From: Deltaproteobacteria bacterium
Lineage (GTDB): Bacteria; Desulfobacterota; Binatia; DP-6
Direction of reading: 5' to 3'
Length of the DNA: 44,876 nt
Assembly (NCBI GenBank): GCA_005879585.1
Contig: VBKG01000318.1
Coordinates: 1 to 44,876 of the forward strand
Part shown: in pieces, positions 155 to 24,500 of the stretch
Numbering within the stretch: position 1 is the first letter of the stretch
Layout: the number at the start of each line of letters is the position of its first letter
The notes under the pieces: generated by a model
What the model saw: only the letters and a program-made list of their open reading frames with translations
The model's database searches: none
Told to the model about the DNA's origin: nothing
Position numbers and translations under genes: made by a program

Positions 155-1012
155 ATGGTGCTCGTGCGGCGACATCGACGCGCGGTCGAGCTCGCGCTGC
201 TCGCGCTCGTGGCCTACCTCGGCGCGCTCGGCGTGAGCACCGGCGTGCGCGGTGCGCTCGAGACGGCACCGACCGACGTGCCGGACGCGAACATCGCAAC
301 GGATCCGGCGCCGCGGCCGCTCGAGCCGCTCGCGAGCTATGCGGTGATCGCGGAGCGGGATCTCTTCAACGCGTCCCATCGGACACCGTCGCGGCACAGC
401 GTCGGGTCCGGCCGGCTGCGCCTGTGGGGCGTCGGCTTTCGCGGCGGGGAGGCGCGCGCGGTGATCGAGGACACGGCGAGCCACCGGCAGGAGCTCTACC
501 GGGTGGGCGATTCGGTCGGGGACGCGCGCCTCGCCGCCATCGACTGGGACCACGTGACGCTCGCGCGCCCGCGCGGCCAGGAGACGCTCGAGCTCGCGAC
601 GCCCGAGGGCGGCGCGCCGGCGCGGACCGACGCCGCCACGCCCGACAGCGTGCCGGCGCCTGCGGCGGACGAGCGCATCCGGCGGACGGCGGAGAACGCC
701 TTCATCGTCGACCGGCGCGAGATCACCGGCGCCGCCGACAACATGAGCGGGCTCCTGACCCAGCTCCGCGCGGTCGCCGAGGTCACGGAGGGACGGCCCG
801 CCGGGTTCCGGCTCTTCGAGATCGCGGGCGGCAGCCTCTTCTCGCGGCTCGGGCTCCTTGACGGCGACGTCGTGCAGCGGGTGAACGGCACTGCGATCGG
901 CGATCCCGCCGCCCTTCTCGGCTTCCTCCAGCGGCTCAAGACCGAGCCGCGCGTGGCCCTCGACATCGTGCGGGGCGGCGTGCCGCGCACGCTCGTCTAC
1001 GACCTCCGATGA
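155..1012 (+). CDS. gspC: Type II secretion protein GspC
   Basis: GspC is the inner-membrane clamp protein that links the inner-membrane platform to the secretin in type II secretion. The product from the ATG at 155 (285 residues) has a short basic N-terminus (VRRHRR) and one membrane helix (ELALLALVAYLGALGV). The periplasmic homology region follows (ERDLFNASHR, then LRLWGVGFRGGEARAVIED), and the C-terminus is PDZ-like (LFSRLGLLDGDVVQRVNG, about residues 225-280). An in-frame start at 41 exists, but the extra 38 residues look non-coding. The stop overlaps the gspD start as ATGA. Identification rests on this architecture and on its position directly before gspD. The 154 bases upstream show no gene I can support. 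Confidence 0.88.
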   Translation: MVLVRRHRRAVELALLALVAYLGALGVSTGVRGALETAPTDVPDANIATDPAPRPLEPLASYAVIAERDLFNASHRTPSRHSVGSGRLRLWGVGFRGGEARAVIEDTASHRQELYRVGDSVGDARLAAIDWDHVTLARPRGQETLELATPEGGAPARTDAATPDSVPAPAADERIRRTAENAFIVDRREITGAADNMSGLLTQLRAVAEVTEGRPAGFRLFEIAGGSLFSRLGLLDGDVVQRVNGTAIGDPAALLGFLQRLKTEPRVALDIVRGGVPRTLVYDLR

Positions 1013-5809: not shown

Positions 5810-6219
5810 GGCGACGCGAGGGATTCACGCTGCTCGAGGTCATGGTCGTCGTCTTCATCCTCGGCTTGCTCGCGACGATCGTCGCGCCGAAGATCATGGG
5901 CCGCACCGACGACGCCCGCCACACGAAGGCCGTCGCCGACATGAAGGGCATCGAGCAGGCGCTGAACCTCTACCGGCTCGACAACAGCGGCTACCCGACG
6001 ACCGACCAGGGACTCCAGGCGCTGGTGTCGCGGCCCGCAACATCGCCCGTGCCGCGCCAGTGGAATCCGAACGGCTACCTCGAACGCGTGCCGCTCGACC
6101 CGTGGGGCCGGCCGTACGTGTACCTGAGCGACGGCGCCCGCTTCACGCTCAAATCCTACGGCGCCGACGGCGTGGAAGGCGGCGAGGGCAAATTTGCCGA
6201 CATCGACAGCCGGGACTGA
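5806..6219 (+). CDS. gspG: Major pseudopilin GspG
   Basis: GspG is the main subunit of the type II secretion pseudopilus, processed by the prepilin peptidase and assembled in the inner membrane. The 137-residue product has a five-residue basic leader (MRRRE), the processing motif GFTLLEVMVVV with Glu at mature position 5, and one hydrophobic helix. The GspG-specific globular region follows: DNSGYPTTDQGLQALV, then PLDPWGRPYVYLS and a C-terminal Asp/Gly-rich loop near residues 115-125 that corresponds to the calcium site of the family. The start overlaps the gspF stop as ATGA. No prepilin peptidase gene is present in the window, so processing must rely on one encoded elsewhere. Confidence 0.97.
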   Translation: MRRREGFTLLEVMVVVFILGLLATIVAPKIMGRTDDARHTKAVADMKGIEQALNLYRLDNSGYPTTDQGLQALVSRPATSPVPRQWNPNGYLERVPLDPWGRPYVYLSDGARFTLKSYGADGVEGGEGKFADIDSRD

Positions 6220-6718
6220 GGCCGGACGCCGCCCTCGAGGCTTCACCCTCCTCGAGCTCGTGGTGGCGCTCGCCGTGATCGCGCTCAGTGCCGGCCTGGT
6301 ATTGCCGCGGCTCGACGACATCACCGGACGGCGGCTCGACGCCGCCGCTCGCCGTTTGGCGGACAGCCTCGCTTACGCACGCGACCGCGCGATCCTCGGC
6401 GGGCGGCCGATGCGGCTCGTCGTCGACCTCGATCGCGGGCGCTGGGAGCTCGGCACGCCGGCGCACGATGCAACGACCATCACGCCCGATGCCTCACCAC
6501 TCGGCCGCGCGAGCGTGCTGCCCGCCGGCCTCCGCATCGTCGCGGTGACCGCCGGCGGCGCGCCACCGGCGACCCGCGGCCTCGCCGCCCTCGACCTCGA
6601 GCCCGACGGCGACGCGTTTCCCGGCCGCATCGACCTCGACGATCGCTCGGGCCGCCGCGCGAGCGTCGTCGTGCCGGCCGCGGGAGGGCGGCCGTTCGTC
6701 CACGGGTCCGACGGATGA
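6194..6718 (+). CDS. gspH: Minor pseudopilin GspH
   Basis: GspH is a minor pseudopilin near the pseudopilus tip. The 174-residue product has the prepilin motif RGFTLLELVVALAVIAL with Glu5, a membrane helix to about residue 40, then a GspH-type globular domain (LADSLAYARDRAILGGRPMRL and a beta-rich tail). The start is probably the TTG at 6194, lying 26 bases inside gspG behind a GAGGG stretch; no ATG or GTG lies closer to the leader. The leader of about 16 residues is somewhat long but normal for minor pseudopilins. Its stop sits inside ATGA at 6715-6718, which is probably the old start of the next gene (see gspJ). Confidence 0.85.
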   Translation: MPTSTAGTEAGRRPRGFTLLELVVALAVIALSAGLVLPRLDDITGRRLDAAARRLADSLAYARDRAILGGRPMRLVVDLDRGRWELGTPAHDATTITPDASPLGRASVLPAGLRIVAVTAGGAPPATRGLAALDLEPDGDAFPGRIDLDDRSGRRASVVVPAAGGRPFVHGSDG

Positions 6719-6737
6719 CCTCGGCGCGGGCCGAAGC

Positions 6738-7190
6738 TTGCTCGTCCGTCTCGCCGCCGAGCTCGAAGCGGCCCGCCGCCCGGGTCCGGGCGAGCGCTTC
6801 GTCCTCGAACCGCCGGCCGACGGTGCGCCGCCGTGGTCGTCGCTCAGCTTCCCGACGGCGGCGCGCGGGCCGGCTGCGGGCTCGACGCCCGCGGGCGACA
6901 CGAGCGTCGTCTCGTACCGCGTGGACGCGGTTGCCGGACGGCCAGGCGTGGGCACGCTCGTGCGTCGTGAGGCCCTCGCACCGGTTCCGGCATCGGAGCC
7001 GCCCGCGGTTCCCATGCTCGCGGGAGTCCGCGCGCTCCGCATGCGCTGCCTCGACGGCGGCGGCTGGCATAGCGTCTGGCAGGGCGACGAGCTGCCGCGC
7101 GCCGTCGAGATCGCGATCGGTCAGGACGACGGCCATGGCGGCACGGAGGAGCTGACGACCGCGGTCGCGCTCCAGGCGGCGTCGCCGTAG
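6738..7190 (+). CDS. gspJ: GspJ-like minor pseudopilin lacking its N-terminus
   Basis: The body of this frame looks like the globular domain of GspJ, a minor pseudopilin: LVRLAAELEAAR, then TSVVSYRVDA, a LVRREAL strand, PMLAGVRALRMRCLDGGGW and PRAVEIAIG. The prepilin leader, Glu5 and hydrophobic helix that must precede this are absent. The only in-frame start is a TTG at 6738, at roughly residue 40-45 of a normal GspJ. An ATG at 6715 overlaps the gspH stop exactly as other starts in this operon do, but it reads in another frame and soon becomes non-coding. I infer that a deletion of a non-multiple of three removed the leader and helix. If the sequence is real, the product should not be processed or assembled. 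Confidence 0.62.
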   Translation: MLVRLAAELEAARRPGPGERFVLEPPADGAPPWSSLSFPTAARGPAAGSTPAGDTSVVSYRVDAVAGRPGVGTLVRREALAPVPASEPPAVPMLAGVRALRMRCLDGGGWHSVWQGDELPRAVEIAIGQDDGHGGTEELTTAVALQAASP

Positions 7191-7199
7191 CGGAAACCC

Positions 7200-8590
7200 A
7201 TGCGCATCCTCGCGATCGAGATCGGTGACGGCGAGCTCCGCGCGGCGCGCGCGCTGCGGACGTTCGGTTCGGCGCGGCTCGCCGGCGTCGAGCGGATCCC
7301 GTTCGCCGACGCGTCGGAGCTGCGCGCCGCGCTCGAGCGCCTCGCCGCGTGGCACCCGCAGGTAGTCGTCGCGCTCGCCCCCGCGGCGCTCGTGACGCAC
7401 CGGATCCTCACGCTTCCCTTCGGCAGTCGACGGCGGGTCGCGGCCACGCTGCCGCTCGAGCTCCTGGGCCAGCTGCCCGCCGCGCCGGAGGACCCAGTGA
7501 TCGCGTTCGAGCCGCTCGCCCACACCGAGGCCGGGACGGTCGTCCTGGCCGCGGCAGCACGGCGGGCGGACCTGGAAGCGTCGATCGAGCCGCTCGTCGC
7601 GGCGGGGCTCCCGCCGGCGCGCGTCGAGCTCGCGCCGATCGCCGTCTGGAGTCTGATGCCCGACGCCGCCGGTGACGCGGCAATCGTCGTCGCGGACGGC
7701 GAGCGGAGCGCGCTCTCGGTCCGGCGGGGCGGCCGGATCGTGGGGCTCCGTGCGCTCGGGACACCGGCCACCGAGCCGGTCGCTCTCGCCGCCGAGGTGC
7801 GCTGGGTGCTCGCCGCGCTCGGCGGCGCGCCGCCGACGATCGTCGCGACCGTGCGCTCGGGACACCGGCCACCGAGCCGGTCGCTCTCGCCGCCGAGGTG
7901 CGCTGGGTGCTCGCCGCGCTCGGCGGCGCGCCGCCGACGATCGTCGCGACCGGGGCCGACCGCGCACGCATCGCCGCGGCGCTCGACGCTCGACCGCTCG
8001 CCGATGTCGACGACGCGTGCGCCGCCGTGGCGGGTGCGGCGACCGGTGGGCGTCACGGCGTCGCATTCGACCTCGGCCTCCGGCCGTCGGGTACGTCGCT
8101 CCGCCGCGTGGCGGCGCTCGCTGCCGTCGCCGTGGTGCTCGCGTGCCTCGACCTCGGCCTCGCGCGCTACGATCTCGCGCGTCGCGACGTCGCGCTCGTC
8201 ACCGCGATCGAGCGCACGGCGGCCGAGGCGATGCCCGGCACCCGGTTGGTCGCGCCGCGCGCGCAGCTCGAGGCGGCCGTCGGCGGTGCGGTGCGGCAAC
8301 GGACGCGCCTCGGGGGTGGGACGACCGTGCTCGAGATCCTGCGCGAGGTCTCGACCCGCGTGCCGCCGAGCGTGAGCCTGGACCTCGACCAGCTCACGAT
8401 CGAGGGCGAACGGCTCGACCTCCGCGGGCACGCCGCGAGCTTCGACACGGTGGACGCGCTCCGCCGCGCCCTCGCGAGCGCACCGTTCCTGAGCGACGTG
8501 ACCGCCGACGAGACCCGCGCGACGGTCGACGGCCGCGGCGTCGAGTTCCGGCTGCATGCAGCGCGCCGCCCGAGCGGAGCGAGCTCGTGA
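7200..8590 (+). pseudogene. gspL: GspL, frameshifted by a 101-bp tandem duplication
   Basis: GspL is the inner-membrane assembly protein whose cytoplasmic domain recruits GspE. The first part (7200 to about 7850) encodes the actin-like cytoplasmic domain (MRILAIEIGDGELRAAR, then VVVALAPAALVTHRILTLPF). The second part, in another frame from about 7898 to 8590, encodes the rest of it, a membrane helix (VAALAAVAVVLACLDLGLA) and a periplasmic ferredoxin-like domain. The frames are separated by a perfect 101-bp tandem duplication. Removing one copy restores a single frame of 429 codons ending at the same stop, which overlaps gspM as GTGA. Without repair the frame reads into unrelated sequence to 8375 and lacks the membrane anchor. 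Confidence 0.85.
7748..7952 (+). repeat. Perfect 101-bp tandem duplication inside gspL
   Basis: Positions 7748-7851 and 7849-7952 are identical over 104 bases at an offset of 101. The 3-base overlap CCG is the microhomology at the junction. Flanking bases differ on both sides (T against A on the left, T against G on the right), so the boundaries are sharp. The unit length is not a multiple of three and therefore breaks gspL. Confidence 0.95.
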
Positions 8591-9102
8591 GCGACCGGGT
8601 GCTCGCGTGGCTCGGCGGGCGCTCGGCGCGCGAGCGACTCTTCCTCGTCGTCGCCGCCGCGACGGCGGTCGTGATCGGCCTCGCGCTCGGCGCGCTCGCG
8701 GTACGCGACGACCTCGCCGCCCTTCACCGCCGCGTCGCGGCGCACGAGCGGGATCTCGCCGTCGTCCGGGTTCTCGCCCAGCGGTTGACCGCCGGCCGCC
8801 CGGCGGGCGCCGCGTCAGACGACACGTCGCTGCTCGCCGAGGTGCAGCAAGCGGCCGAGGGGGTCGTCGGCCACGAGCGGCTCGCGAGCCTCACGCCGGC
8901 CGCGGGTCCGGTGGAGGACGGCCTCGCCGAGGACCGCGTCGCGCTCCGCCTGAGCGATGCGGCGTTACCGGAGCTGGTGGGTCTGCTGCACGCGCTCGAG
9001 AGCGCGGCGCACGTCGTCCGCCTGGACCTCCGCAAGCACCCGGACGATCCGGCACGCTTCGACGCCACGCTCGAGGTGGCGCGCCTGCGGGCGGCCTCGT
9101 GA
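8587..9102 (+). CDS. gspM: Type II secretion protein GspM
   Basis: GspM is a bitopic inner-membrane protein that pairs with GspL in the assembly platform. From the GTG at 8587, overlapping the gspL stop as GTGA, the product is 171 residues. It has a short cytoplasmic N-terminus containing RSARERLFLVVAAATAVVIG (one membrane helix, about residues 15-36), a coiled-coil-prone stretch (LAALHRRVAAHERDLAVVRVL) and a ferredoxin-like periplasmic domain (LPELVGLLHALESAAHVVRLDLRKHP). The sequence is divergent; the call rests on topology, length and position between gspL and gspN. Confidence 0.85.
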   Translation: MSDRVLAWLGGRSARERLFLVVAAATAVVIGLALGALAVRDDLAALHRRVAAHERDLAVVRVLAQRLTAGRPAGAASDDTSLLAEVQQAAEGVVGHERLASLTPAAGPVEDGLAEDRVALRLSDAALPELVGLLHALESAAHVVRLDLRKHPDDPARFDATLEVARLRAAS

Positions 9103-9941
9103 GACGGACGATTCTCGGCGGCGCGCCGATCGCGGCCGGTCTCGTCGCCCTCTTCCTCTTCCTCCTCTTCCCCATCGACACGGTCGTCCGCGCGCTGCTC
9201 GCGCGCGCCACGCCCGCCGGCTGGCCCGCGATCGTCTTCCAGCGAGCGGCGCTCCGTCCGACGGGTCTGCTACTGGAGGACGTGACGCTCCACGGCCGCG
9301 ACGGCGCCGCGCTCGTGGCCGCCGAACGGGTCTTCTTGCGTCCGTCGCTCCGCGGGCTCTGGCGCGACGGCACCGGGCTCCCGTGGCACGTCGAGGCGCT
9401 CGTCTGCGGCGGCACCGGCGTCGCGACGGTGACCGGCGACGGCGCGCCGGCGGCCCTCAGCTTCACGTGGCAGGACGTGGACCTCGGCGGCTGTCCGCCG
9501 CTCGCGCTCGCCGCCGGCGCGCTCGCCGGCCGCGCGACGATGACGGCGCGCGTCCGGCTCGGCCCGCCGGCCGGTGAGGGAACGGTCGAGGTGCACGCCG
9601 GCGAATGGCGGAGCAGCGCAGGACCGCTGGTCGCCGTCGGCACGCTGCACGCCGAGCGCGCCTCCTTCGGCTGGCGCCTCGTCGGCGACCGCGTGGCGCT
9701 CACCTCGTTCGAGCTCCACGGTCCCGACGTGTCGGCCGAGGGCGAGGGCACGGTGCGGCTCGCCGCACCGCTCGAGGCGAGCGGCCTCGAGCTGCGGCTG
9801 GCAGTCGCGGCGGCTCCGGAGGCACCGGACCGCGTGCGCGCGCTGCTCGGTCTGCTGCCGGCGCCCGCCGGTGACGCGGCCGGCCCGCGCCGGCTGTTCG
9901 TCGCCGGCACCGTCGCCAGCCCTCGGTTGCTCGCCCCGTGA
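9099..9941 (+). CDS. gspN: Type II secretion protein GspN
   Basis: GspN is an accessory type II secretion protein, anchored in the inner membrane with a mostly beta periplasmic domain. From the GTG at 9099, which overlaps the gspM stop as GTGA, the product is 280 residues. It has an N-terminal helix (GLVALFLFLLFPIDTVVRALL, about residues 13-35), then LRPTGLLLEDVTLHG and repeated beta segments that resemble AsmA-like bridge proteins, as reported for this family. It lacks any catalytic motif. Its place after gspM supports the call. The GspN family is present only in some type II systems, including many deltaproteobacterial ones. Confidence 0.8.
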   Translation: MRRTILGGAPIAAGLVALFLFLLFPIDTVVRALLARATPAGWPAIVFQRAALRPTGLLLEDVTLHGRDGAALVAAERVFLRPSLRGLWRDGTGLPWHVEALVCGGTGVATVTGDGAPAALSFTWQDVDLGGCPPLALAAGALAGRATMTARVRLGPPAGEGTVEVHAGEWRSSAGPLVAVGTLHAERASFGWRLVGDRVALTSFELHGPDVSAEGEGTVRLAAPLEASGLELRLAVAAAPEAPDRVRALLGLLPAPAGDAAGPRRLFVAGTVASPRLLAP

Positions 9942-9960
9942 GCGCGAGCGAAGGATATTG

Positions 9961-10314
9961 ATGAGCGCGCGACGGCCGCGCGGCATGACGCTCCTCGAGG
10001 TGGTGGTAGCGCTCTTCGTGCTGGCCGTCGGGGTGACCGCACTCCAGCGTCTGCTCGCGGCCAGCGTGCACGGCATCGCCACCGACGTGCGCCTGACCGA
10101 GGCGACGTTGCTCGCCCGGGGTCTCCTCGCCGACGCCGAGGTGCACCCGCCCGACCCGGGACACGTCGAGGGCGACCGGCCCCGCGCGCTGCACTACACG
10201 CGCGACACGACGTCCACCGCCCATCCGGCGCTGCGCGAGGTTCGCGTGCGCGTGTCCTGGGAGCCGGCAGAGGCCTGCGAGCTCGTGGAGATGGTTCGTG
10301 TCCCGGCGCCGTGA
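9961..10314 (+). CDS. gspI: Minor pseudopilin GspI
   Basis: GspI is a minor pseudopilin of the tip complex with GspJ and GspK. The 117-residue product begins MSARRPRGMTLLEVVVALFV: a basic leader, then the processing site G/MTLLE with Glu5 and a membrane helix, followed by a small globular domain ending VRVRVSWEPAEACELVEMVRV, typical of GspI. A clear ribosome binding site AAGGA lies at 9951-9955, five bases before the ATG. The gene sits after gspN instead of next to gspH/gspJ, so the tip-complex genes are split by gspL-M-N. It overlaps gspK by 17 bases. Confidence 0.88.
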   Translation: MSARRPRGMTLLEVVVALFVLAVGVTALQRLLAASVHGIATDVRLTEATLLARGLLADAEVHPPDPGHVEGDRPRALHYTRDTTSTAHPALREVRVRVSWEPAEACELVEMVRVPAP

Positions 10315-11194
10315 ACGCGGCGTCGCGCTGCTCGGCGCCGTCGTCGGCCTCGCGGTCCTCGGCATCGTGACGCTCGGCCTCGCGCACACTGCCGCGGTCG
10401 ACCAGCACCTCGCGCGGAACGCGCTCGCGGCGCTCCAGGCCGACGCCCTCGCGCGCTCGGGGGTCGCGGCGGCGGCGGTGTTCCTCACCGAGCGCGATCC
10501 CGACGCCGTCGACTGGGCGCGTGCACCCTGGGCGGAGGGCTCGGGACGCCAGCCGCTCGGCGCGGGCACGGTCGAGGTGATGGTCGAGGACGAGGCGCGC
10601 CGTCTCGCGCTCGGCGTCCCCGAGCTCGCCGATCGGCTGCCGCGGCTCCTCGCCGTCCTCGGTCTCGACGCCGCGCTCGCCGACGCGCTGGCCGACTGGA
10701 CGGATGCGGACGACACCCCGCGTCCGCTCGGCGCCGAGCGTGCGTACTATCTCGGTCTCACCCCGCCGTACGCACCCCGGAACGCGCCGCTCGGGAGCGT
10801 CGGCGAGCTCGCCCTCGTGCGCGGCTTCACGCGACCGGTCGTCGAGCGCCTGCGACCGTACGTCACCGTCGCGCCGGAGGCTCGCGTGAACCCGAACACC
10901 GCGTCGCGCGAGGTGCTGCTCGCCGTCGTCGACGACGCGGCGGCCGTCGAGCGGCTGCTCGCCGCCCGCGCGCGGGCCGCGATCGACCCCGAGAAGGACC
11001 TTCCGGCCATCCTGCCCGGCGCCACACCCGACGCGATCGACGCGCTCCGCGCGCGGCTGACCGCGCGCGGCACCTCCTACACCGTGCGCGCCGTCTCCGC
11101 GGTCGGCGACCTCACACGTGCCGCCGAGGCGACGTTGTTCGCGCCCCCGGGCGTCGCCGCCGAAGTCACCGCCTGGCGTCCGTTCCGCCCGTAG
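10298..11194 (+). CDS. gspK: Minor pseudopilin GspK
   Basis: GspK caps the pseudopilus tip. The 298-residue product from the GTG at 10298 has a short basic leader (SRRRERG), the hydrophobic segment VALLGAVVGLAVLGIVTLGL with Gly instead of Glu at mature position 5 (characteristic of GspK), and the large alpha domain inserted in a pseudopilin fold. It includes LADALADWTDADDTPRPLGA, then YYLGLTPPYAPRNAPLGSVG and the helix-hairpin-like VNPNTASREVLLAV. Length matches the family. It is the last gene of the operon. The next gene starts only 8 bases later but encodes an unrelated transporter. Confidence 0.93.
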   Translation: MSRRRERGVALLGAVVGLAVLGIVTLGLAHTAAVDQHLARNALAALQADALARSGVAAAAVFLTERDPDAVDWARAPWAEGSGRQPLGAGTVEVMVEDEARRLALGVPELADRLPRLLAVLGLDAALADALADWTDADDTPRPLGAERAYYLGLTPPYAPRNAPLGSVGELALVRGFTRPVVERLRPYVTVAPEARVNPNTASREVLLAVVDDAAAVERLLAARARAAIDPEKDLPAILPGATPDAIDALRARLTARGTSYTVRAVSAVGDLTRAAEATLFAPPGVAAEVTAWRPFRP

Positions 11195-12464: not shown

Positions 12465-13511
12465 TCAATGGCGATGCCGGTGGTGAACGTCCGAGACGTG
12501 CGGGTGAGCGTGTTCTGCGGGAACGTGCCGATGAAGATGAGCGTGGGGTTCGAGAACGGGCTCCGGGTGCTCGTGCTGATGATGCTCGTCGTGGAAGTGC
12601 GCGTGCTCGTGCTCGAGCGCCTCGTGTACGTGCCGATGGCCGTGCGTCTCGGTCACGAGGAGGAAGACGCCGAGCACCATGAGGCCCGCGGCTACCGCAT
12701 GGGACGGACCCAAGCGCTCACCTAGCAGTGGAACCGCCAGAACGGCGCCGACGAACGGTGCCGTCGTAAAGAATGCAGCTTGCCGCGCGGCCCCGAGAAT
12801 TCGCATCGCACGGACCGCGAGAACGATGCTGAACCCGTAGCTGACAAATCCGACTGCGAGAGCAGCCAAGACGACGGCCAGCGCCGGGAGCATCGATCCC
12901 GTGGCGAGCGCGAGCCCGAGCATGAACGTACCTGCGACGAGGCCCTTCGTCCGCGCAATCGCAACTGGGTCGCGCACCGATAATCGCTGCGTCAGGTTGT
13001 TGTCGACTGCCCAACCGAGGCAGGCGAATACGACGGCAGCGGCGCCACGCCAGTCCCCATGCACGTCGTCCGGCGCGTACGTCAGGGTGGCGGCACCGAG
13101 GGCGGTCAGAACGGCGCCGGCGGCGGCGCGACGGCCGAGGTGCTCGCGGAACAACATGACGGCGAGGAGAATCGTGAGCGGGGTCTCGAGGTTCAGGAGG
13201 AGCGAGCCGACGACGGCCGAAACACGCGCGAGACCGAACAGCATGAATACCGGGGCGGCGACTCCGCCCGTGGCGATGACGAAGAAGAGAAGCAGGAAGT
13301 CGACGCCGCGGAGTCGCGCCTCGCGCGGCGCCGCGTGCGGAGCCTCCCGAGCCGCGACCAATGTCGCCGCGGCGAGCCCGAGACCGGCACCGAGGTACAG
13401 CAACGCGGCGAGCAGGAGCGGGCCCGTCGCCGGGAGCAAGAGCTTGGAGACTGGAGCGCTCAGGCCGAACAGGACGGCGGCCGCGAGAGCGGACGAAATG
13501 CCGGCCGACAT
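12465..13511 (-). CDS. EamA/DMT-family transporter with histidine-rich C-terminus
   Basis: This is a drug/metabolite-family permease with ten predicted helices in two EamA halves: LNLETPLTILLAVMLFREHLG and AAFFTTAPFVGAVLAVPLLGERLG are the paired signatures ending in the conserved Glu. I prefer the ATG at 13511 (MSAGISSALAAAVLFG) to an in-frame ATG at 13532, because helix 1 begins at once. After the last helix comes a tail of about 60 residues with 23 histidines, in strings such as HEHAHFHDEHHQHEH and HAHLHRHVP. Such tails bind divalent metals in known metal transporters and chaperones, which suggests a nickel, cobalt or zinc connection, but the substrate is unproven. Codon use is slightly less GC-biased than in neighbours. 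Confidence 0.85.
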   Translation of the reverse strand: MSAGISSALAAAVLFGLSAPVSKLLLPATGPLLLAALLYLGAGLGLAAATLVAAREAPHAAPREARLRGVDFLLLFFVIATGGVAAPVFMLFGLARVSAVVGSLLLNLETPLTILLAVMLFREHLGRRAAAGAVLTALGAATLTYAPDDVHGDWRGAAAVVFACLGWAVDNNLTQRLSVRDPVAIARTKGLVAGTFMLGLALATGSMLPALAVVLAALAVGFVSYGFSIVLAVRAMRILGAARQAAFFTTAPFVGAVLAVPLLGERLGPSHAVAAGLMVLGVFLLVTETHGHRHVHEALEHEHAHFHDEHHQHEHPEPVLEPHAHLHRHVPAEHAHPHVSDVHHRHRH

Positions 13512-13550
13512 GGGAGGCGGCGCCCTGCCCACCTCGCGGACGGCCGACTG

Positions 13551-14801
13551 CTACGCCCCGATCCGCGCGCGGATCTGCCGCAGCAACGCGGCGTTGTCGG
13601 AGTGACCGGTCATGCGCGCGGTGACACGACCACGAACCGGGCGGCCGAGCAGGTAGAAGTCGCCGAAGATGTCGAGGATCTTGTGGCGTACGAACTCGTC
13701 GGAGAAGCGTAGTGGCGCGTTCACCACGCCGTCGGGGCCGACCAGGATGCAGTTGTTCAGGCGGCCGCCGCTCGCGAGCCCCATCTGCTCGAGGGTCTCG
13801 ATCTCCTTGACGAAGCCGAAGGTACGGGCCGGGGCGATCTCACGCCGGAAGGCGTCGACGCCGGTGAAGCGGAACTCGTACGCCTGCCGGCCGATCGGCG
13901 GCGGATAGTCGAGCGTGTAGTGCACCTCGAACGCGTCGGCCGGCTCGATCATGATGCCCTTCTCGGTGCCCGACTCCGCGCCGAGCGCGTACGTGCGGTC
14001 GATGACCAGCTCCTCGACCGTCGCCGGCTGCTCGACGACGCCGCCCTCCTCGAGCAGCGCGCAGAGCTCGAGCGCCGAGCCGTCGAGGATCGGCACCTCG
14101 CCCTGCATCTTCACGAGCATGTTCGTGATGCCGTAGGCATGCAGCGTCGCCATCAGGTGCTCGACCGTCTTCGCCACCATACCGCCGCGGGCGAGGGTGG
14201 TCGCGTAGTCGGTCGAATCCACGTGGTCGATGACCGCGGGAACCGTCTCGCCCGACGAGATGCTGCCGAAGAGAATGCCGCTGCCGGGCGGCAGCGGCTG
14301 GAGGATGAGCCCCGTGCGAACGCCCGTGTGGAGCCCCTGCCCGTTCACGACGACGCCGCGCGCGATGGTCCGCTGTGGCAGCACGCGCGCCGGGGCGACG
14401 GCCGCCGGCGCCGTCGTGCCGTCGCGGTCGACCGAGACGTTGCCGTCGAGCGCGCGACCCACCACCTGGAGCAGCGCGTCGAGCTGGAAGGGCTTCTCGA
14501 GGAAGTCGCACGCGCCGAGGCGAATCACGCGCATCGCCGTCTCGATCGTGCCGTGGCCCGAGATGACGATGATCGGCAACCGCGGCGCGCGGGACCGCAT
14601 GCGCTCGACGAGCTCGATTCCGTCGACCTCCGGCATCCACACGTCGACGATCGCCAGGCGGGGCTCGACGTGCTGGAGCAGCTCGAGCGCGCGGCGGCCG
14701 TCGGCAGCCTCGACGACGTCGAACCCCTCGTCGGAGAGGACGCCGCGCAACGTGCAGCGGATCTTCTCCTCGTCGTCCACCACCAGGATCGTCTCAGGCA
14801 T
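13551..14801 (-). CDS. lpxC: Response-regulator receiver domain fused to LpxC deacetylase
   Basis: The 416-residue protein has two complete domains. Residues 1-118 are a receiver domain: acidic pair D9/D10, phospho-acceptor D53 (IVDVWMPEVDG), S81 and K103 (FLEKPFQ). A linker of about 25 residues rich in Ala/Pro/Thr follows. Residues 143-416 are LpxC, the zinc deacetylase of UDP-3-O-acyl-GlcNAc and committed step of lipid A synthesis. They carry HVDSTDYATTL, catalytic E214 with zinc ligand H215 (KTVEHLMATL), zinc ligands H373 and D377 (RHKILDIFGDF) and general acid H400 (GHSDNAALL). All key residues of both domains are present. The start has AGAGGA five bases upstream. The gene lies 14 bases after a histidine kinase gene, in the place where a DNA-binding NtrX-type regulator would be expected. 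Confidence 0.95.
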   Translation of the reverse strand: MPETILVVDDEEKIRCTLRGVLSDEGFDVVEAADGRRALELLQHVEPRLAIVDVWMPEVDGIELVERMRSRAPRLPIIVISGHGTIETAMRVIRLGACDFLEKPFQLDALLQVVGRALDGNVSVDRDGTTAPAAVAPARVLPQRTIARGVVVNGQGLHTGVRTGLILQPLPPGSGILFGSISSGETVPAVIDHVDSTDYATTLARGGMVAKTVEHLMATLHAYGITNMLVKMQGEVPILDGSALELCALLEEGGVVEQPATVEELVIDRTYALGAESGTEKGIMIEPADAFEVHYTLDYPPPIGRQAYEFRFTGVDAFRREIAPARTFGFVKEIETLEQMGLASGGRLNNCILVGPDGVVNAPLRFSDEFVRHKILDIFGDFYLLGRPVRGRVTARMTGHSDNAALLRQIRARIGA

Positions 14802-14815
14802 CGGTCCTCTCTTCC

Positions 14816-17143
14816 TCAGGCGCCGTAGGCGCCGAGCCGGGCGCGGGCGGCGAGCTGGCTCGGCTGCTGCCGCACGGGGAACTCCATGATGAAGCGGCTG
14901 CCGCGCGGCAGGTTGTCGCGCGCCCGGATGAAGCCGTTGTGATCAGCGACGATCGCCGACACGATGGCGAGCCCGAGGCCCGTGCCGTCGGGCTTGGTGG
15001 AAAAGTAGGGCTCGAAGAGCCGGGCCTTCACCTCGGCCGTCATGCCGTCGCCGTTGTCGGCGATCTCGAGCCGCACGATGCCGAGCCGCGAGACGTCGGT
15101 GGTCTTGAGCTCGACGCGGCCGCGCTCGCCGGGCGCGACCTGCCGCCGCGCCGCGCACGCCGCCACGGCATTGTGGAGGATGTTGATGACCGCGCGCTTC
15201 ACGCCCTCGCGATCGAGCTCAAGCTCGGGGAGGTCGGGCTCCGGGACGAAGACGAAGTCGATCTCGCGGTGGCCTTCGCGGAAGAGGACGAGTGCCTCCT
15301 CGACGACCGCGTTGAGGTCCTGCGGCGTGTGCTGGCCGGCCGGCATCCGGGCGAAGGTGGAGAACTCGTTCACGAGCGCCTTCAGCTCCTCCACCTGCTG
15401 GATGATCGTGCGGGTGCACTCGTCGAACACGGTGCCGCCGTCGTGGAGCTGGCCGGCGTAGCGGCGGCGGAGCCGCTGGGCGGAGAGCTGGATGGGCGTC
15501 AGGGGGTTCTTGATCTCGTGGGCAATGCGCCGCGCCACCTCGCGCCACGCTTCCATGCGTTGGACGCGGAGGAGGTGCGTCACTTCCTCGAGGAAGACTA
15601 CGAGGCCCTGCGGGCTGCCGGTATCGTCGAGCAGCCGGGTGCCGGTGAGGAGCAGCGCCACGTCGTGACCGTCGCGCTGGAGCCGCATCTGCCGCTCGAC
15701 GGTGGCCGCGCCTCCGGATGGGCCGTCGAGGCGCGCCGGTGGCCCGAACGTGATCGCGTACGGCGGCCCGTCGTTGCCGTTGTTCGCGAGCAGGCTCGCG
15801 CTCAGCTGGCGGATCTCGGCATAGGGCTCGCCGGCGAGCACCTCGTCGAGCGGCCGCCAGATGCACGCGGCGGCGCGCACGTCGAGGAGCGTCTCGGCGG
15901 CGCGGTTGAGCGTCGTGATGCGGCCCTCGGCATCGGTCGAGATGACGCCGGCGGTGATGTTGGCGAGCAGGATCTCGAGGTAGCGGCGGCGGGAGTCGAG
16001 CTCGGTGCGACTGGTCTTCAGCTCCGCGGTCATGCGGTTGAACGCGGAGACGAGCGTGCCGATCTCGTCGTGCCCCTCACCCGGGATGCGCTGGTCGAGG
16101 TCGCCCTGCGCGACGGCGCGCGTCCCTTCGACCAGCCGCTGGATGGGCACCGTGATGCGGCGAGCGATGTAGAAGCCGACCCAGGTGGCCGCGAACAGCA
16201 CGACCACCGTGGCGAGGCCGAGCGTGATCGTGTACGCGGTCTTGATCGGCTGCCGCTGCACCTTCAAGCGAACGTACTCGTCGAACGCACGGCTGATGTC
16301 CTCGCGGCGCTTCGCGACGCTGTTCGGGACGTAGGTGTCGACCACGACGACCGCCACCGGGCGGTCGTCCACCACGACGGGAGCGGCGGCACGGATCATG
16401 TCCGCCTCGCCGACGGTGTCCACGACCGTGGCTTCCGGTCCTTGTGCCACGCGACGCACGAGGTCCGACCACGGCGCGAGCCCGATGCCCGTGGGCAGCT
16501 CGCCGCGCCGGCTGCGCGCGATCGCCTGGCCGTGCGCGAACACCTCGACGACGTCGAGCTGGTATTCGGCGCGGCGCTGATCGAGGAACCGCTTGAGCGC
16601 CTCGCGCCGCTCGGGCGCCAGCAGGCCTTCGGCGCGCAGCCGTCCGGCAAGGCCGCGCGCGAACCCGAGCGCGGTCTCGCCGAGTCCGCGGTAGTACGTC
16701 TGCGCGACCTCCCGCGAGCCGGCGAGCGAGTTCTCCACCTGCTCGTTGAACCACCGCTCGATCGAGTTGCCGACGAACACCAGCGCCACGAGGAAGAGCA
16801 GCGTCGCGGGCAGCAACGCGACCCCGACGAACGCGCCGACGAGGCGGGTGCGCAGGTGCGCGCCGATGATGCGGCGCCGGCGCTCGAAGATCAGCTTCAC
16901 GATGTTCCGGCCGACCAGGAACACGAGCAGGATCAGCAGGATCAGGTTCAGGTTGATGAGCACGACGAGCACCGCATTGGTGCCCACGGAGCCCGTGCCG
17001 GGGGACTGCGGGAGATGGAACTCGAAGACGGCGAAGAGCACGACCGCCACCGCGGTCGCGATGATGATCAACCCTTCCAGACGGCGCCGGCGAGACTCGG
17101 GCGCGGCCGCCTGCGCAGGCGGCGAGTCGGACGGGCCGGGCAT
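14816..17143 (-). CDS. NtrY-like membrane sensor histidine kinase
   Basis: This is a 775-residue kinase with the NtrY layout. Three N-terminal helices (about residues 23-40, 56-78 and 101-124) precede an extracytoplasmic sensor region (about 125-305), a fourth helix (TLGLATVVVLFAATWVGFYI) and a HAMP domain (RRITVPIQRLVEG...DEIGTLVSAFN). A PAS domain follows (ILLANITAGVISTDAEGRI). The phospho-acceptor H-box is RRIAHEIKNPLTPIQLSAQR with H542, then a HATPase domain with N box NILHNAVAAC, G1 DNGDGM, F box FEPYFSTK and G2 GTGLGLAIV. The ATG at 17143 (MPGPSDSPP) is chosen because upstream codons look non-coding. It is co-directional with and immediately upstream of the receiver-LpxC gene, its likely partner. 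Confidence 0.94.
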   Translation of the reverse strand: MPGPSDSPPAQAAAPESRRRRLEGLIIIATAVAVVLFAVFEFHLPQSPGTGSVGTNAVLVVLINLNLILLILLVFLVGRNIVKLIFERRRRIIGAHLRTRLVGAFVGVALLPATLLFLVALVFVGNSIERWFNEQVENSLAGSREVAQTYYRGLGETALGFARGLAGRLRAEGLLAPERREALKRFLDQRRAEYQLDVVEVFAHGQAIARSRRGELPTGIGLAPWSDLVRRVAQGPEATVVDTVGEADMIRAAAPVVVDDRPVAVVVVDTYVPNSVAKRREDISRAFDEYVRLKVQRQPIKTAYTITLGLATVVVLFAATWVGFYIARRITVPIQRLVEGTRAVAQGDLDQRIPGEGHDEIGTLVSAFNRMTAELKTSRTELDSRRRYLEILLANITAGVISTDAEGRITTLNRAAETLLDVRAAACIWRPLDEVLAGEPYAEIRQLSASLLANNGNDGPPYAITFGPPARLDGPSGGAATVERQMRLQRDGHDVALLLTGTRLLDDTGSPQGLVVFLEEVTHLLRVQRMEAWREVARRIAHEIKNPLTPIQLSAQRLRRRYAGQLHDGGTVFDECTRTIIQQVEELKALVNEFSTFARMPAGQHTPQDLNAVVEEALVLFREGHREIDFVFVPEPDLPELELDREGVKRAVINILHNAVAACAARRQVAPGERGRVELKTTDVSRLGIVRLEIADNGDGMTAEVKARLFEPYFSTKPDGTGLGLAIVSAIVADHNGFIRARDNLPRGSRFIMEFPVRQQPSQLAARARLGAYGA

Positions 17144-17277: not shown

Positions 17278-17475
17278 TCAGCGGCGAAAGAACAGGTTCA
17301 GGACGAGCGTGAGGACGGCGCTCACGACGATGCAGGTGACGAGCGGGAAATAGAAGGTGAACGTGCCGCGCCGGATGAGGATGTCTCCGGGGATGCGCGG
17401 CACGAACACGAGCACGACGCCGAGCAGGACGGCGGCCACGCCGACCAGGATCAGGACCCGCCCGAGATCGTGCAT
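17278..17475 (-). CDS. DUF2905 family small membrane protein
   Basis: The product is 65 residues (MHDLGRVLILVGVAAVLLGV...), with two membrane helices separated by the family signature PGDILIRRGTFTFYFPL. The function of the family is unknown. A start four codons earlier (ATG at 17487, MLRI) is possible. That one would overlap the start codon of the divergent methyltransferase, so I favour the inner ATG. It is read away from the methyltransferase and towards the kinase operon, 134 bases before the kinase start. Confidence 0.85.
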   Translation of the reverse strand: MHDLGRVLILVGVAAVLLGVVLVFVPRIPGDILIRRGTFTFYFPLVTCIVVSAVLTLVLNLFFRR

Positions 17476-18305: not shown

Positions 18306-18320
18306 GCACCTCGCAGGTGC
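18306..18320 (+). terminator. Short perfect hairpin after the methyltransferase gene
   Basis: GCACCT-CGC-AGGTGC forms a six-base-pair stem with a three-base loop, 14 bases after the methyltransferase stop. It lacks a following T run (CTTATCC), so it may be a weak or Rho-assisted terminator or only an incidental palindrome. Confidence 0.3.
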
Positions 18321-18356
18321 CTTATCCGAACTCGCGGCGCCAGCTGCATCTTCCAC

Positions 18357-18385
18357 TTGACAACCGGAACATTCACCATGTTAAG
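18357..18385 (+). promoter_or_regulatory. Candidate sigma-70 type promoter for the giant secreted protein
   Basis: A perfect -35 hexamer TTGACA at 18357-18362 is followed at 16-17 bases by TGTTAAG, a poor -10 match. The surrounding DNA is noticeably less GC-rich than the coding regions. Two consecutive hairpins lie between it and the chosen start: CGCACA/TGTGCG (18447-18469) and CATGGG/CCCATG (18471-18489). Confidence 0.35.
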
Positions 18386-18520
18386 AGGCACGCGCTTCAC
18401 CGCGTTGATCGTATCGAAGAGTTTAGAAAGCACGGGAACACGGCGTCGCACATGCTCTACCGCTGTGCGTCATGGGGGACAGACCCATGGAGTCAGACGG
18501 TTTACGGCGGCGAGCGGAAG

Positions 18521-21500
18521 GTGCTGACGCGTTCGAGGGAGGCCCTCGCGAAGATCCCCGTCCTCGCCTCGATCGTCCTGGCGTTGACGATCGGGACGGC
18601 TCCCCGCGCCGTCGCCGCCGATTGCTCTCTCACGCCGATCGCGATCGGACAGTCGGCTCGAGGGCGGCTCACCGCGGGCGACTGCGTGTCGTCGGTGTTC
18701 AGAGCGGGCGGCACGCACTTCGCGGATCGCTGGAGCTTCGACGGGACCGTGGGTCAGCAGGTCGCCATCCTCATCAGTTCCGGCGACTACACCCCCTCCG
18801 TCGCGCTGATCCGCGCATCCGACGGCGTCACGCTCCAGTCGGTCAACGGCTCGGGGACCGCCGCTCGCCTGCCGGGGGGGGCGGGATTCTTCACGCTCTC
18901 GGCGACGGGCACCTACTTCATCGAGGTCTCGTCGACCAGCGTGCAGGACACGGGTGCCTACGCGGTGAGCCTGGCGGGTTCCGCCGTCGCCTTCCCGGCC
19001 GCGGGAGTGGTCAGGAGCGGCGGCATGGGCCTCGCCGGTGTCACCGTGACGTTCTCCGACGTGCTCGGCACGGGCGCCGTCCCGCCCCCGGTGCAAACCG
19101 ACTCATCGGGCGTGTGGTCCCAGACGGGGTTCGAAATCGGCACCACGTACCGGGCGACGCCCAGCCTCGGCAGCTTCATCTTCGCGCCCCCGTCGCGCGA
19201 CTTCACCACGACGCTCGAGCTCGACTTCACCGGTACCTTCATCGCGTGCAACACGTTCACCGGGGCGCCGATCGCGGTCGGGCAGGCGCCGATCCCGGGA
19301 GCACTCACCGTCGGCGATTGCGTGTCTCCCGTGTTCACGTCCGGCGGAGCGCACTTCGCCGACCGGTACACCTTCGACGGCACCGGCGGCCAGCAGGTGG
19401 TCATCCTCGCGACGTCGGGAGACTTCACCCCCGCGGTGACACTGGCTCGCGCCAGTGACGGCCAGACGCTGGCGTCCGTTTCCGGCTCCGGCACGTCGGC
19501 ACGCCTGGGGTTCTTCACGTTGCCGAGCACGGGGACCTACGTGATCGAGGTCGCCTCGAGCGGGCCACTCCAGACCGGCGTCTACCACGTCGGCCTGGCG
19601 GATGCCGCCTCACCGTATTTCGTCTCCGGCATCGTGAGGAGCGGAGGAATGGGTCTCGGCGGGGTTATCATCACGTTCTCCCGCGTCCTCGGAACCGGCA
19701 GGATTCCCCCTCCGGTACGGACCGACGACTCGGGGTTCTGGTCGGCGATGGGGTTCGACGTCGGGACCACGTACCGCGCGACACCCGCCCTCGGCACCTT
19801 CATCTTCGAGCCGCCGTCCCGTGACTTCACGGCGACCGGCGAGCTCGATTTCACCGCGACCTTCGTCGGCTGCGACACCTTCACCGCCGTGCCGATCGCC
19901 ATCGGCCAGAGCGTCCCCGGCGACCTCTCGGTGAGCGACTGCGTCTCGCCGGTCTTCGGCAGCGGCGGCGGGCACTTCGCCGATCGCTACGCCTTCGACG
20001 GCACCGAGGGCCAGCAGGTTGCCGTCCTGGCGACCTCGGGCGACTTCACACCGGCGATCGCGCTGATCCGTGTGAGCGACCGGCAGATCGTACACTCCGT
20101 GTCGGGCTCCGGCACCTCGGCACGCCTTCCCGCGTCGAGCTTCTTCACGCTGCCGAGCACGGGTGCGTACGTGATCGAGGTATCCTCCACGTCGTCGCTG
20201 AAGACCGGCGCGTACCACGTCGCGCTGGCGGACGCACCGGACCCGTACCCGGTGCAGGGGATCGTGACGGGCGGCGGAATGAGGCTCGCCGGCGTCACGA
20301 TGACCTTCTCGCTCGTCCTCGGGTCGGGCCCCGTGCCGCCGCCCGTGCAGACGGACGTGGACGGCTCCTGGTCGCAGACGGGGTTCGGCGTCGGGGCGAC
20401 GTACCGCGTGACGCCGAGCCTCGGCACGTTCGCCTTCGCGCCGCCGTCGCGCGACTTCACGACGATGACGGAGCTCGACTTCACCGGCACCTTCGTCGCC
20501 TGCAGCATGCCGGGGGGCCTCCCGATCACCTTCGGTCAGGTGCTCCAGGGCGCACTCACCGCCGGCGACTGCGTCTCCACCGTCTTCACGGGGGGCGGCG
20601 AGCACTTCGCGGACCGCTACACGTTCAGCGGCACGCAGGGCCAGCAGGTGATTATCCTGGCCACCTCCGGGGATTTCGCGCCGGCGATCACGCTGATCGA
20701 GGGGAGCGACGCGCGGACCCTGACGTTCGCCGTCGGCTCCGGCACCTCGGCCCGCGTGCCCCCGTCGAGCCCGAACGTCACGCTGCCCAGCACCGGCACC
20801 TACGTCATCGAGATCGCCTCCGCGTCGGCCCTGGACACGGGCGGCTACCGCGTCGGTCTGGCGGACGCGGCCGGTCCCTCGTTCCCCGCGGCGGGAGTCG
20901 TAAAGATCGGCGGAGGACCGCTCCCCGGTGTCACGATGACCTTCTCGCGCGTCGTCGGCACGGGCGCGCTGCCGCCGCCGGTCCAGACGGATGCGTCCGG
21001 CTTGTGGACCCAGAGCGGCTTCGAGACGGGCACCACGTATCGCGTGACACCGAGCCTCGGACCGCTCACCTTCACCCCCGCGTCGCGCGACTTCCCCGAC
21101 ATCGCGGAGCTGGACTTCACCGCGGCCACGAGCGCCGCGGCATGCCCGCCATTCGCAATCCCGATCTCGCCGGGGCAGACGATGACCGGCGAGCTGACGC
21201 TCGACGACTGCGCCGGGGTTCCGAGCTTCGGCGCCAACCGCTTCACCGACGATTACTCTTTCACCGGCACCGCCGGCCAGCAGGTCGCAGTCCTCGTCAC
21301 GTCGAACGCGTTCACGCCAGCGGTCGCCATGATCCGGGCATCGACGGGAACCGTGCAGCTGTTGACGTTCGGAAGCGGCACGTCCGCTCGTCTCCTGTCG
21401 GGAACGGCGTTCTTCACCCTCCCGGCGACCGACACGTACATCATCGAGGTCACCTCGGCCTCGGTGAACCGGATCGGGCGGTATGTCGTGAGCCTGGCCG

Positions 21501-24500
21501 ACGCCAACACGACGGTCCGGTTCCCTGTCGCGGGCGTGGTGACGGCAGGCGGCATGGGGCTCGGCGGCGCCATGATCACGTTCTCCCGCGTGCTCGGCTC
21601 CGGTGCGCTGCCGTCTCCCGTAAAGACGAATGACTCGGGTGTCTGGTTCCAGACCGGCTTCGAGCCCGGCACCACGTATACCGCCACGGCGACTCTCGGC
21701 ACGTACGCCTTCAACCCGCCCTCCCGTGACTTCACGACGACCCTGGAGCTCGACTTCGCCGCGACGTTCATCGAGTGCAATGCCCTCGCGCCGTTGGCGA
21801 TCGCGCCTGGCCAGACGGAGCGCGGCACGCTCACGACGGGCGACTGCACGTCGCCGGTGTTCGGTACCAACCACTTCGCCGATCGTTATTCGTTCACCGG
21901 CACGGGTGGGCAGCAGGTGGCGATCCTGGTCACGTCGCGGGAGTTCACGCCAGCGGTCGCGCTCATCTGCAACAACCAGGTGCTGTCGCAGCCGTTCGGG
22001 TCCGGGACGTCGGTCCGGCTGCCCGCGTCCGGATTCTTGACGTTGACGAACAGCGGCCCCTGCATGATCGAGGTGTCGTCGAACGCCATCTTCGACACCG
22101 GTGGGTACACCGTCAGCCTCGCGGACGCGCCGAACCCCTATCCGGTCGCCGGCATCGTCACGAGCATGGGCACGCCGCTCGCGGGCGTCACCATGACGTT
22201 CTCCCGCGTGCTCGGCCAGGGGGCACTGCCGTCGCCGGTGCAGACCGACGCCGGAGGATTCTGGTCGCAGAACGGCTTCCAGCCCGGGACGACGTACCGC
22301 GTCACGCCGAGCCTTCCCACGTACACGTTCAATCCGCCGTCGCGCGACTTCACCACTCCCGCAGAGCTCGACTTCGCGGCGACGTTCATCGAATGCAGCG
22401 GGCTGTCACCATTTCCCATCTCGCCGGGACAGACGGTCGCCGGCAGCCTCGCGACGGGCGGCTGCACGTCGCCGGTGTTCGGCAGCAACCGCTTCGCCGA
22501 TCGGTACTCCTTCAGCGGGACGGGCGGCGAGCAGGTGACGATGCTCGTGACGTCCCGGAAGTTCACCCCCGCCGTCGCGCTCATCTGTAATGATCAGGTG
22601 CTGTCGCAGCCGTTCGGGTCCGGAACATCCGTCCGCCTGCCGAGCTCCGGCTTCTTCATGCTGCCGAACACCGGGCCGTGCCTGGTCGAGGTGTCGTCGA
22701 ACGGCACGTTCGATACCGGCGACTACGACGTGAGCTTCGCCGACGCCTCGTTGCCGTATCCCGTCGCCGGCATCCTGACGGCCACCGGCGCGCCGCTGCC
22801 GGGCGTCACGGTGACGTTCTCGCGTGTGCTGGGTACGGGAGCGCTGCCGGCGCCGGTGCAGACCGATGCCATGGGGTTCTGGTCGCAGACGGGCTTCGTG
22901 CCAGGGACCACGTACCGCGTCACGCCGAGCCTCGGCACGTACACGTTCACACCGCCGTCGCGTGACTTCACGACGATCGGCGAGCTCGACTTCACGGCGA
23001 CGTTCGTCGAGTGCAACGTCCTCGCACCGGTACCGATCGCGCCCGGGCAGACCGTCGGCGGCGCGCTCACGACCGACGACTGCACGTCGCCCGTGTTCGG
23101 CAGCAACCGGTTCGCGGACCGCTATTCCTTCGATGGCACGCAGGGGCAGCAGGTGGCGATCCTCGTCAACTCCACCGAGGTCACCCCCGCGGTGGCGCTC
23201 GTCTGCAACAACCAGGTGTTGTCGCAGCCGTTCGGGTCCGGGACGTCGGTACGCCTGCCGGCTGTCGGGTTCCTCACGTTGCCGGCCACCGGCCCGTGCC
23301 TGATCGAGGTGTCGTCGAGCGCCACGTTCGACACCGGTGCGTATCACCTGAGCCTTGCCTACGCGTCCCTGCCGTATCCCGTCGCCGGCATCGTCACCGG
23401 CCTCGGCATGGGCCTTCCCGGCGTCACGATGACCTTCGACTGCGTAGGTGGCAGTGGGGTGGTGCCGCTTCCCGTACAGACGGATGGGGGCGGGTTCTGG
23501 GCCCAGACCGGGTTCGAGGTCGGCCCGACGTGCACCGTGACGCCGAGCCTGGCGGGCTTCACCTTCACGCCCGTCTCGCGCACCTTCACCACCCTCACCG
23601 CCCTCAACTTCAGCGGCCTGTTCTCCGGCGTCACCATGACGACCACCACGACCACAACGACCACGACGACCACGACGACGGGGCCATGCACCGTGAACCT
23701 CGGCATCGGGGACGGAGTGAGTCCGCCGTCGACGGAGTTCTGCGTCGACCTGAACCTGACGAACGGCCGGGCAATTCGGGCGGTTCAGACAGCGGTGATC
23801 GACGTGCCCGATGAGTTCCAGCTCTCGCGCTGCCAGTGCGCGTCGCGCACCGCCGCGTTCTCGTGTCAGTGCAATGAAATCCCGGCCACCAATCGCATCA
23901 ACGTCGTTATCCTCGATGCCGGGGGCGGCTGCATCGCCTCCGGAAGCGGGCCGATCGCGCGCATCTGCCTGACCGACCGCGCGCCGTTGTGCCCGCTCAG
24001 CAACAGCGTTCAGCTGAACATCGACCCCAGCCCCGTCGTTGCGGACTGCAGCAACAACCAGCCGTGCGACGTCTCGCGGTCGAGCGGAGCCGTCCGGTGT
24101 TGTGGCAGTGGACTGCTCGGCGACTGCAACGGCGACGGCCACCTCGACCTCCTCGACATCCTCACCAAGATCGACATCGTGCTCGGCCGCGTGACGCCGA
24201 CGCCGGCGCAGGTGTGCATCTGTGACGACACCTGCGACTCGAGAATCGACGTTTTCGACGTTCTCCGGGAGATCGACGCGCTGCTCGGCCGCATCCCGAC
24301 GCCGCTCGCCTGCCCGACGCCCACGCCATCGGTCACCGCGCAAGTGCTGCCCGCAGGAGCGCACGGCGCGGGAACGTCGGAGCCTACATCCCACGCCGCT
24401 TCGGCGAAGCGTCGCGGGAGTGCCATCCTTTTGCAGAATCGGGACGAAGCCGTACGAGGTCTCGAGCTGACGCTATCGCCGGTGCATGGTCCGGTAGACA

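Follow-up and report, generated by a model that had tools for sequence, protein, structure and literature searches.

An NtrY-type sensor kinase beside a receiver–LpxC fusion in a Binatia genome: a probable two-component system with a lipid A enzyme as its response regulator

Introduction

Response regulators of the CheB, PleD and RpfG types carry a receiver fused to an enzyme in place of a DNA-binding domain, and the known controls of the lipid A enzyme LpxC are proteolysis and transcription. Here we describe a locus from a bacterium of the class Binatia in which the gene for an NtrY-type membrane sensor kinase directly precedes a gene encoding a receiver joined to LpxC (REC–LpxC). The locus lies on contig VBKG01000318.1, of which the whole analysed stretch of 44,876 nucleotides is called the window.

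Two-component control of lpxC at the level of transcription has been described before. Loss of NtrYX in Rhodobacter sphaeroides raises lpxC mRNA 8.8-fold and increases lipopolysaccharide (LPS), an effect considered indirect because no site for NtrX could be located at lpxC (PMC7240162). NtrYX also inhibits lpxC transcription in Caulobacter crescentus, according to a review (PMC12444477). The sole target mapped for the regulator DVU2934 of Desulfovibrio vulgaris is lpxC, and the orthologous operon of Syntrophobacter fumaroxidans sits directly downstream of lpxC (PMC3333781). The stand-alone LpxC of Escherichia coli is under FtsH–LapB–YejM, with LPS synthesis set after translation (PMC12444477).

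The window locus resembles each of these systems in part. It shares with NtrYX, found in Alphaproteobacteria and others, the kinase architecture, homology along the whole sensor and the receiver type, and NtrYX likewise affects the lpxC transcript and the LPS level. However, NtrX is missing and its AAA+ and helix-turn-helix (HTH) output is replaced by LpxC, so that control would be post-translational. DVU2934 and its operon kinase are a two-component system of the same phylum aimed at lpxC, but DVU2934 is a separate DNA-binding regulator working on transcription. The E. coli protein is the same enzyme with the same catalytic residues, whereas the window LpxC has a fused receiver and a sensor kinase and lacks the degron-bearing type of C-terminal tail. 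As in CheB, PleD and RpfG, the receiver is attached to an enzyme, but those outputs modify receptors or make and break signalling nucleotides, whereas the output here is a committed and probably essential biosynthetic enzyme. Transcriptional control of lpxC by two-component systems is a precedent for the logic, and the fusion would shorten the circuit to a single post-translational step. We consider it likely that the kinase and REC–LpxC are a two-component pair in which LpxC itself serves as the response regulator and is phosphorylated by NtrY.

Architecture of the kinase and the fusion protein

The two genes and their domains are as follows (window coordinates).

14816–17143, minus strand: NtrY-type membrane sensor histidine kinase, 775 residues, ATG start (Pfam NtrY_N, HAMP, PAS, HisKA and HATPase_c, in that order)
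16256–16744, minus strand: predicted extracytoplasmic CACHE/PAS-like sensor domain, residues ~134–296 (AlphaFold and Foldseek)
16016–16168, minus strand: HAMP domain, residues 326–376 (Pfam)
15590–15970, minus strand: cytoplasmic PAS domain, residues 392–518 (Pfam)
15335–15547, minus strand: HisKA dimerisation and phospho-acceptor domain, residues 533–603, with H542 in HEIKNP (Pfam and sequence)
14870–15214, minus strand: HATPase_c catalytic domain, residues 644–758 (Pfam)
14802–14815, minus strand: gap of 14 bases between kinase stop and REC–LpxC start, operon-like (sequence)
13551–14801, minus strand: REC–LpxC fusion protein, 416 residues, the sole LpxC of the genome (Pfam, NCBI models, AlphaFold)
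14460–14789, minus strand: NtrX-type receiver, residues 5–114, with D9, D10, phospho-acceptor D53, S81 and K103 (Pfam Response_reg, profiles, PDB matches)
14385–14441, minus strand: flexible linker, residues ~121–139 (AlphaFold predicted local distance difference test score (pLDDT) below 50 at 121–137)
13572–14375, minus strand: LpxC deacetylase domain, residues 143–410, full set of catalytic residues (Pfam, alignment, Foldseek)

The kinase has the domain order of NtrY, its NtrY_N region scores 32.6 bits against a Pfam cut-off of 23.2, and its sensor is homologous along the whole length to those of kinases adjoining NtrX (31–41% identity in alignment A1; also by sequence-profile search); the NtrX that would complete the assignment is not next door. 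The AlphaFold model of the sensor (mean pLDDT 78.7, predicted template modelling score (pTM) 0.58) has a long hydrophobic helix on each side of an extracytoplasmic domain, for which Foldseek returns weak-to-moderate matches to the sensor domains of CitA, DcuS, DctB and WalK. The phospho-acceptor residues are complete in the pair, H542 on one side and D9, D10, D53, S81 and K103 on the other, and the HExxN form of the histidine motif suggests that the kinase could dephosphorylate the receiver as well. The original prediction had named H542 and the HAMP, PAS and HATPase domains, all of which we recover, and had placed the sensor at residues ~125–305, close to the modelled domain.

The fusion protein is modelled with a mean pLDDT of 84.9 and a pTM of 0.81, its two domains being joined by the loose segment at 121–137. 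Neither a sigma54 AAA+ domain nor a Fis-type HTH is present in Pfam matches or in the model; a short linker and then LpxC follow the receiver. The LpxC domain scores 268.9 bits with Pfam and 232 bits with TIGR00325 (curated cut-off 187), and its modelled structure matches Pseudomonas aeruginosa LpxC with an E value of 2e-30 in Foldseek. By fold, score and catalytic residues REC–LpxC is thus assigned as an LpxC deacetylase, and we infer its activity from its status as the only LpxC of a genome that also encodes LpxB.

The receiver is of the NtrX type

Among NCBIfam receiver types, the window receiver is matched best by NtrX (127 bits; runner-up 98). Its best PDB matches are 5m7n and 4d6x, which carry the labels "nitrogen assimilation regulatory protein" and "Fis-family regulator" and which we take to be Brucella NtrX. 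The same holds over the fusion family: all 74 fused receivers prefer an NtrX receiver profile over one of NtrC-family paralogs, by 16–48 bits, and 17 of 17 paralog receivers prefer the paralog profile. A tryptophan two residues past the phospho-acceptor is found in 74/74 fused receivers, 16/17 NtrX and 0/17 paralogs, and GH at positions 82–83, again NtrX-like and unlike the paralogs, in 74/74 fused receivers and 16/17 NtrX. Judged by sequence, the fused receivers are NtrX-type. This parentage was read from profile scores rather than from a tree of REC–AAA proteins, in which the fusions form one clade and a 94/99 branch parts the paralogs from NtrX plus the fusions, but in which NtrX is not resolved and two paralog rows are misread frames.

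All 75 fused LpxC domains fall into one clade of a quick-method tree of 154 LpxC domains, with a Shimodaira–Hasegawa-like approximate likelihood-ratio support of 100 and no unfused member. The active sites of both halves are retained throughout. In the receiver, D9, D10, D53 and K103 never vary (74/74), and 73/74 have Ser or Thr at position 81. E78, H79, H238, K239, D242, D246 and H265 (E. coli numbering) are invariant in 75/75 LpxC domains, a set that includes the zinc ligands and catalytic residues of LpxC (E78, H79, H238, D242 and H265). Linker length varies from 17 to 65 residues, and the tail after the matched LpxC domain has a median of 4 residues in fused proteins vs 32 in unfused ones.

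A divergent second type of REC–LpxC, represented by five proteins (L013, L015, L016, L175 and L176), has an insert and changed acyl or substrate positions (T191S, F192Y and F194T in E. coli numbering). The genomes that carry it also have an unfused LpxC.

NtrX is rarely found where a fusion is the sole LpxC

The window genome (G000, the window being contig C138) is a 5.28-Mb assembly of 625 contigs that is 99% complete. Whole-genome search finds one LpxC only and no spare unfused copy; there is likewise a single NtrY_N kinase and a single hit for the NtrY sensor profile A1. With a single LpxC and LpxB present, the genome is expected to rely on REC–LpxC for lipid A synthesis.

The NCBI NtrX model matches nothing on the window contig except the receiver of REC–LpxC. 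It also detects no ortholog in the genome, where the best regulator reaches 382 bits compared with 500–526 for Desulfobacterota NtrX adjoining NtrY. Our own NtrX profile, A2, gives phylum orthologs ~680–790 bits and all other proteins at most 569; it too finds no ortholog in the genome, with a best score of 515 bits. The genome encodes at least 16 full-length NtrC-family regulators, none of which scores as NtrX. An overlooked NtrX at another place in the genome was therefore not found, the best candidates falling well under ortholog scores on both models. The kinase lies 14 bases upstream of the fusion, on the same strand and without a nearby NtrX, as had been noted from the open reading frames.

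This pattern extends to the genomes sampled. NtrX is found in 1 of 54 genomes with the fusion as sole LpxC (the exception being G285) and in 35 of 36 with unfused LpxC only; the exception there, G225 (L185), has unfused lpxC and ntrY, but no NtrX was found in it. A plain Fisher test gives p ~1e-22, a value inflated by relatedness, and switches within families are fairer evidence: NtrX occurs in 0/4 fused and 6/6 unfused genomes of family f32, and in 0/1 and 5/5 of family f53. Both LpxC forms are present in ten genomes, eight of which keep NtrX; G304, for instance, has an intact lpxC–ntrY–ntrX cluster plus a separate REC–LpxC. A partial LpxC match (profile positions 1–182, 90–97 bits) accompanies the fusion in G302 (contig C194) and G303 (contig C436), the genomes of loci L007 and L008, and in G303 it shares a contig with NtrY and NtrX.

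Fusions with a degenerate activator domain

A further set of proteins (INTERMEDIATES) combines a receiver, a sigma54-type AAA domain, an AAA lid and LpxC in one chain (L010, L014 and 14 other loci). There are 15 such loci, with the kinase directly upstream in nine, plus one whose receiver is in a separate frame. Most still contain an HTH-like stretch. The GAFTGA loop that contacts sigma54 is lost and the Walker-B glutamate replaced in 16 of 16 aligned proteins; Walker A is kept. Twelve of 14 AAA parts prefer the NtrX profile, with margins that are small because this part is degenerate. These proteins resemble an NtrX that has been joined to LpxC and whose activator part is dead, and the window protein has the same layout minus the AAA part.

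The likely starting state is the conserved cluster lpxC–ntrY–ntrX, which many relatives retain. At 16 loci ntrY comes after an unfused lpxC in the same orientation, with ntrX also seen in 13, and in genomes with unfused LpxC NtrX follows NtrY at seven of eight loci, the eighth ending at a contig edge. From such a cluster an NtrX–LpxC fusion would have arisen, whose AAA+/HTH part then decayed and was deleted in most lineages to leave REC–LpxC. The LpxC tree, made by a quick method, nests REC–AAA–LpxC inside REC–LpxC, and repeated AAA loss is therefore required if NtrX–LpxC came first; taken alone, the tree is also compatible with gain of the AAA part instead of loss.

Two unfused loci have other receivers close by. 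A stand-alone receiver gene (L019, 3069–3443; the same locus as L192) lies just upstream of an lpxC–ntrY–ntrX series with unfused lpxC, and a large protein with a C-terminal receiver domain (L079, 107–2926) is encoded ~100 bases upstream of another unfused lpxC.

Distribution and genomic surroundings

We searched a sample of 297 genomes from the phylum, which corresponds to Desulfobacterota as GTDB defines it. The sample holds 12 genomes from the class of the window (11 besides the window), and each has a full-length REC–LpxC with the kinase directly upstream. Across the 63 REC–LpxC loci fetched, a number that, like the other fetched-locus counts, includes a few loci of one genome fetched twice, the kinase is upstream in 16, namely the window and 15 others. 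Chance neighbourhood of kinase and fusion is rejected on the strength of these 15 further loci with identical order. Acidobacteriota, Nitrospirota and Desulfobulbales have such fusions too. A profile search finds NtrY in 77 of 79 genomes tested in the phylum sample, nearly always exactly once. Where NtrY lies apart from the fusion, no NtrX stands beside it at 31 of 32 loci, some of which end at a contig edge. A lone NtrY is thus mostly without an NtrX neighbour, pointing to a kinase kept without its classical partner.

The neighbours of the pair in the window are as follows. REC–LpxC is followed after 18 bases, on the same strand, by the gene for an EamA-family transporter whose tail is histidine-rich (12465–13532, minus strand) and which may share its operon. 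Immediately before the kinase, and on its strand, is the gene for a DUF2905 membrane protein of 65 residues (17278–17475, minus strand). The kinase is adjoined on the opposite strand by a gene whose very long product looks secreted and contains repeats and a pre-peptidase C-terminal (PPC) domain (18317–24706, plus strand). Further away are type II secretion genes (1009–11194, plus strand), among which GspD, GspE, GspF and GspG are recognised by Pfam.

Discussion

The proposed mechanism is a short relay. The NtrY-type membrane kinase would sense a signal through its extracytoplasmic CACHE/PAS-like domain, autophosphorylate at H542 and pass the phosphate to D53 of the NtrX-type receiver carried on LpxC; through its HExxN motif it may also remove that phosphate. 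The phosphorylation state of the receiver would then set the activity or the amount of LpxC, with either sign. We infer that phosphate is transferred, that the receiver controls LpxC and that the evolutionary steps came in the order given. The original prediction, that LpxC had replaced NtrX as the output of NtrY, gains support from the NtrX-type receivers, the lpxC–ntrY–ntrX clusters of relatives, the dead-AAA intermediates and the NtrX counts. It had also held that a conserved NtrX covarying with the kinase would speak against it; such covariation is confined to genomes that have an unfused LpxC, alone or besides a fusion, and so does not overturn it.

Several observations weigh against this reading. 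The rule that the kinase always precedes REC–LpxC is rejected, and its absence beside other fusions, which the original prediction had named as evidence against itself, is real: no NtrY lies within ~6 kb at 47 of the 63 loci, though most such genomes tested have one NtrY elsewhere, usually without NtrX. Kinase and receiver are correlated, given LpxC, at 0.48 in adjacent pairs but at 0.06 in separated pairs (partial Mantel), so that this simple coevolution test favours pairing for neighbouring genes only. The NtrX and fusion counts are phylogenetically non-independent beyond the few within-family switches. G285 (L210) has fused LpxC only, yet keeps NtrX beside NtrY, and where the two LpxC forms coexist the kinase may be serving NtrX.

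A more specific proposal is that the pair is a direct LPS homeostat, derived from a transcription factor turned into an enzyme regulator, in which NtrY would read an envelope or LPS-supply signal outside the membrane and, by phosphorylating LpxC, set its flux in one membrane-to-enzyme step, replacing the link of the NtrX regulon to lipid A, with the dead-AAA NtrX–LpxC fusions as surviving intermediates. We find the grounds for and against this refinement about evenly balanced. The closest competitor of the main two-component reading, which we regard as possible though somewhat unlikely, is that the receiver governs the abundance or location of LpxC rather than catalysis, phosphorylation exposing or hiding a protease or membrane docking site, comparable to FtsH/LapB. 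E. coli LpxC is mainly controlled by proteolysis (PMC12444477), and the short C-terminus of the fused proteins is not expected to hold an E. coli-type C-terminal degron, a role that could have passed to the receiver. We identified neither a degron nor an adaptor, however, and direct gating fits the data equally well.

It is considerably less probable that the true output of the kinase is another NtrC-family regulator encoded elsewhere, with REC–LpxC receiving phosphate from other kinases or acetyl phosphate. The many full-length NtrC-family regulators of the window genome could be partners of the kinase, and kinase and fusion are apart in many genomes. None of those regulators scores as NtrX, however, and NtrY otherwise adjoins NtrX, whose receiver type is the exact one fused to LpxC. 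Least probable of all is that the receiver is an idle scaffold, fixed by chance on an LpxC that no longer reads phosphate: the clearly decaying AAA domain of the intermediates does demonstrate that passive remnants occur in the family, but an idle receiver should decay too, and its key residues stay invariant even where the AAA motifs joined to it have gone.

Enzymes as the outputs of receivers are already known. No published account of a receiver–LpxC fusion with NtrY as its kinase was found in the open literature searched, and a receiver on the committed lipid A enzyme with an NtrY kinase appears to be new. The series of unfused lpxC–ntrY–ntrX, dead-AAA NtrX–LpxC and REC–LpxC would be an unusually complete record of a regulator joining an enzyme and shedding its DNA-binding function. 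Should the two-component reading be correct, direct action of a kinase on LpxC would add a new principle to the control of LPS synthesis, and with sensor, switch and enzyme held in two genes, the signal that sets LPS supply becomes directly testable. Across a broad set of bacteria, most of them uncultured, a membrane sensor that regulates genes elsewhere appears to have been rewired for direct control of the enzyme that starts outer-membrane lipid A synthesis.

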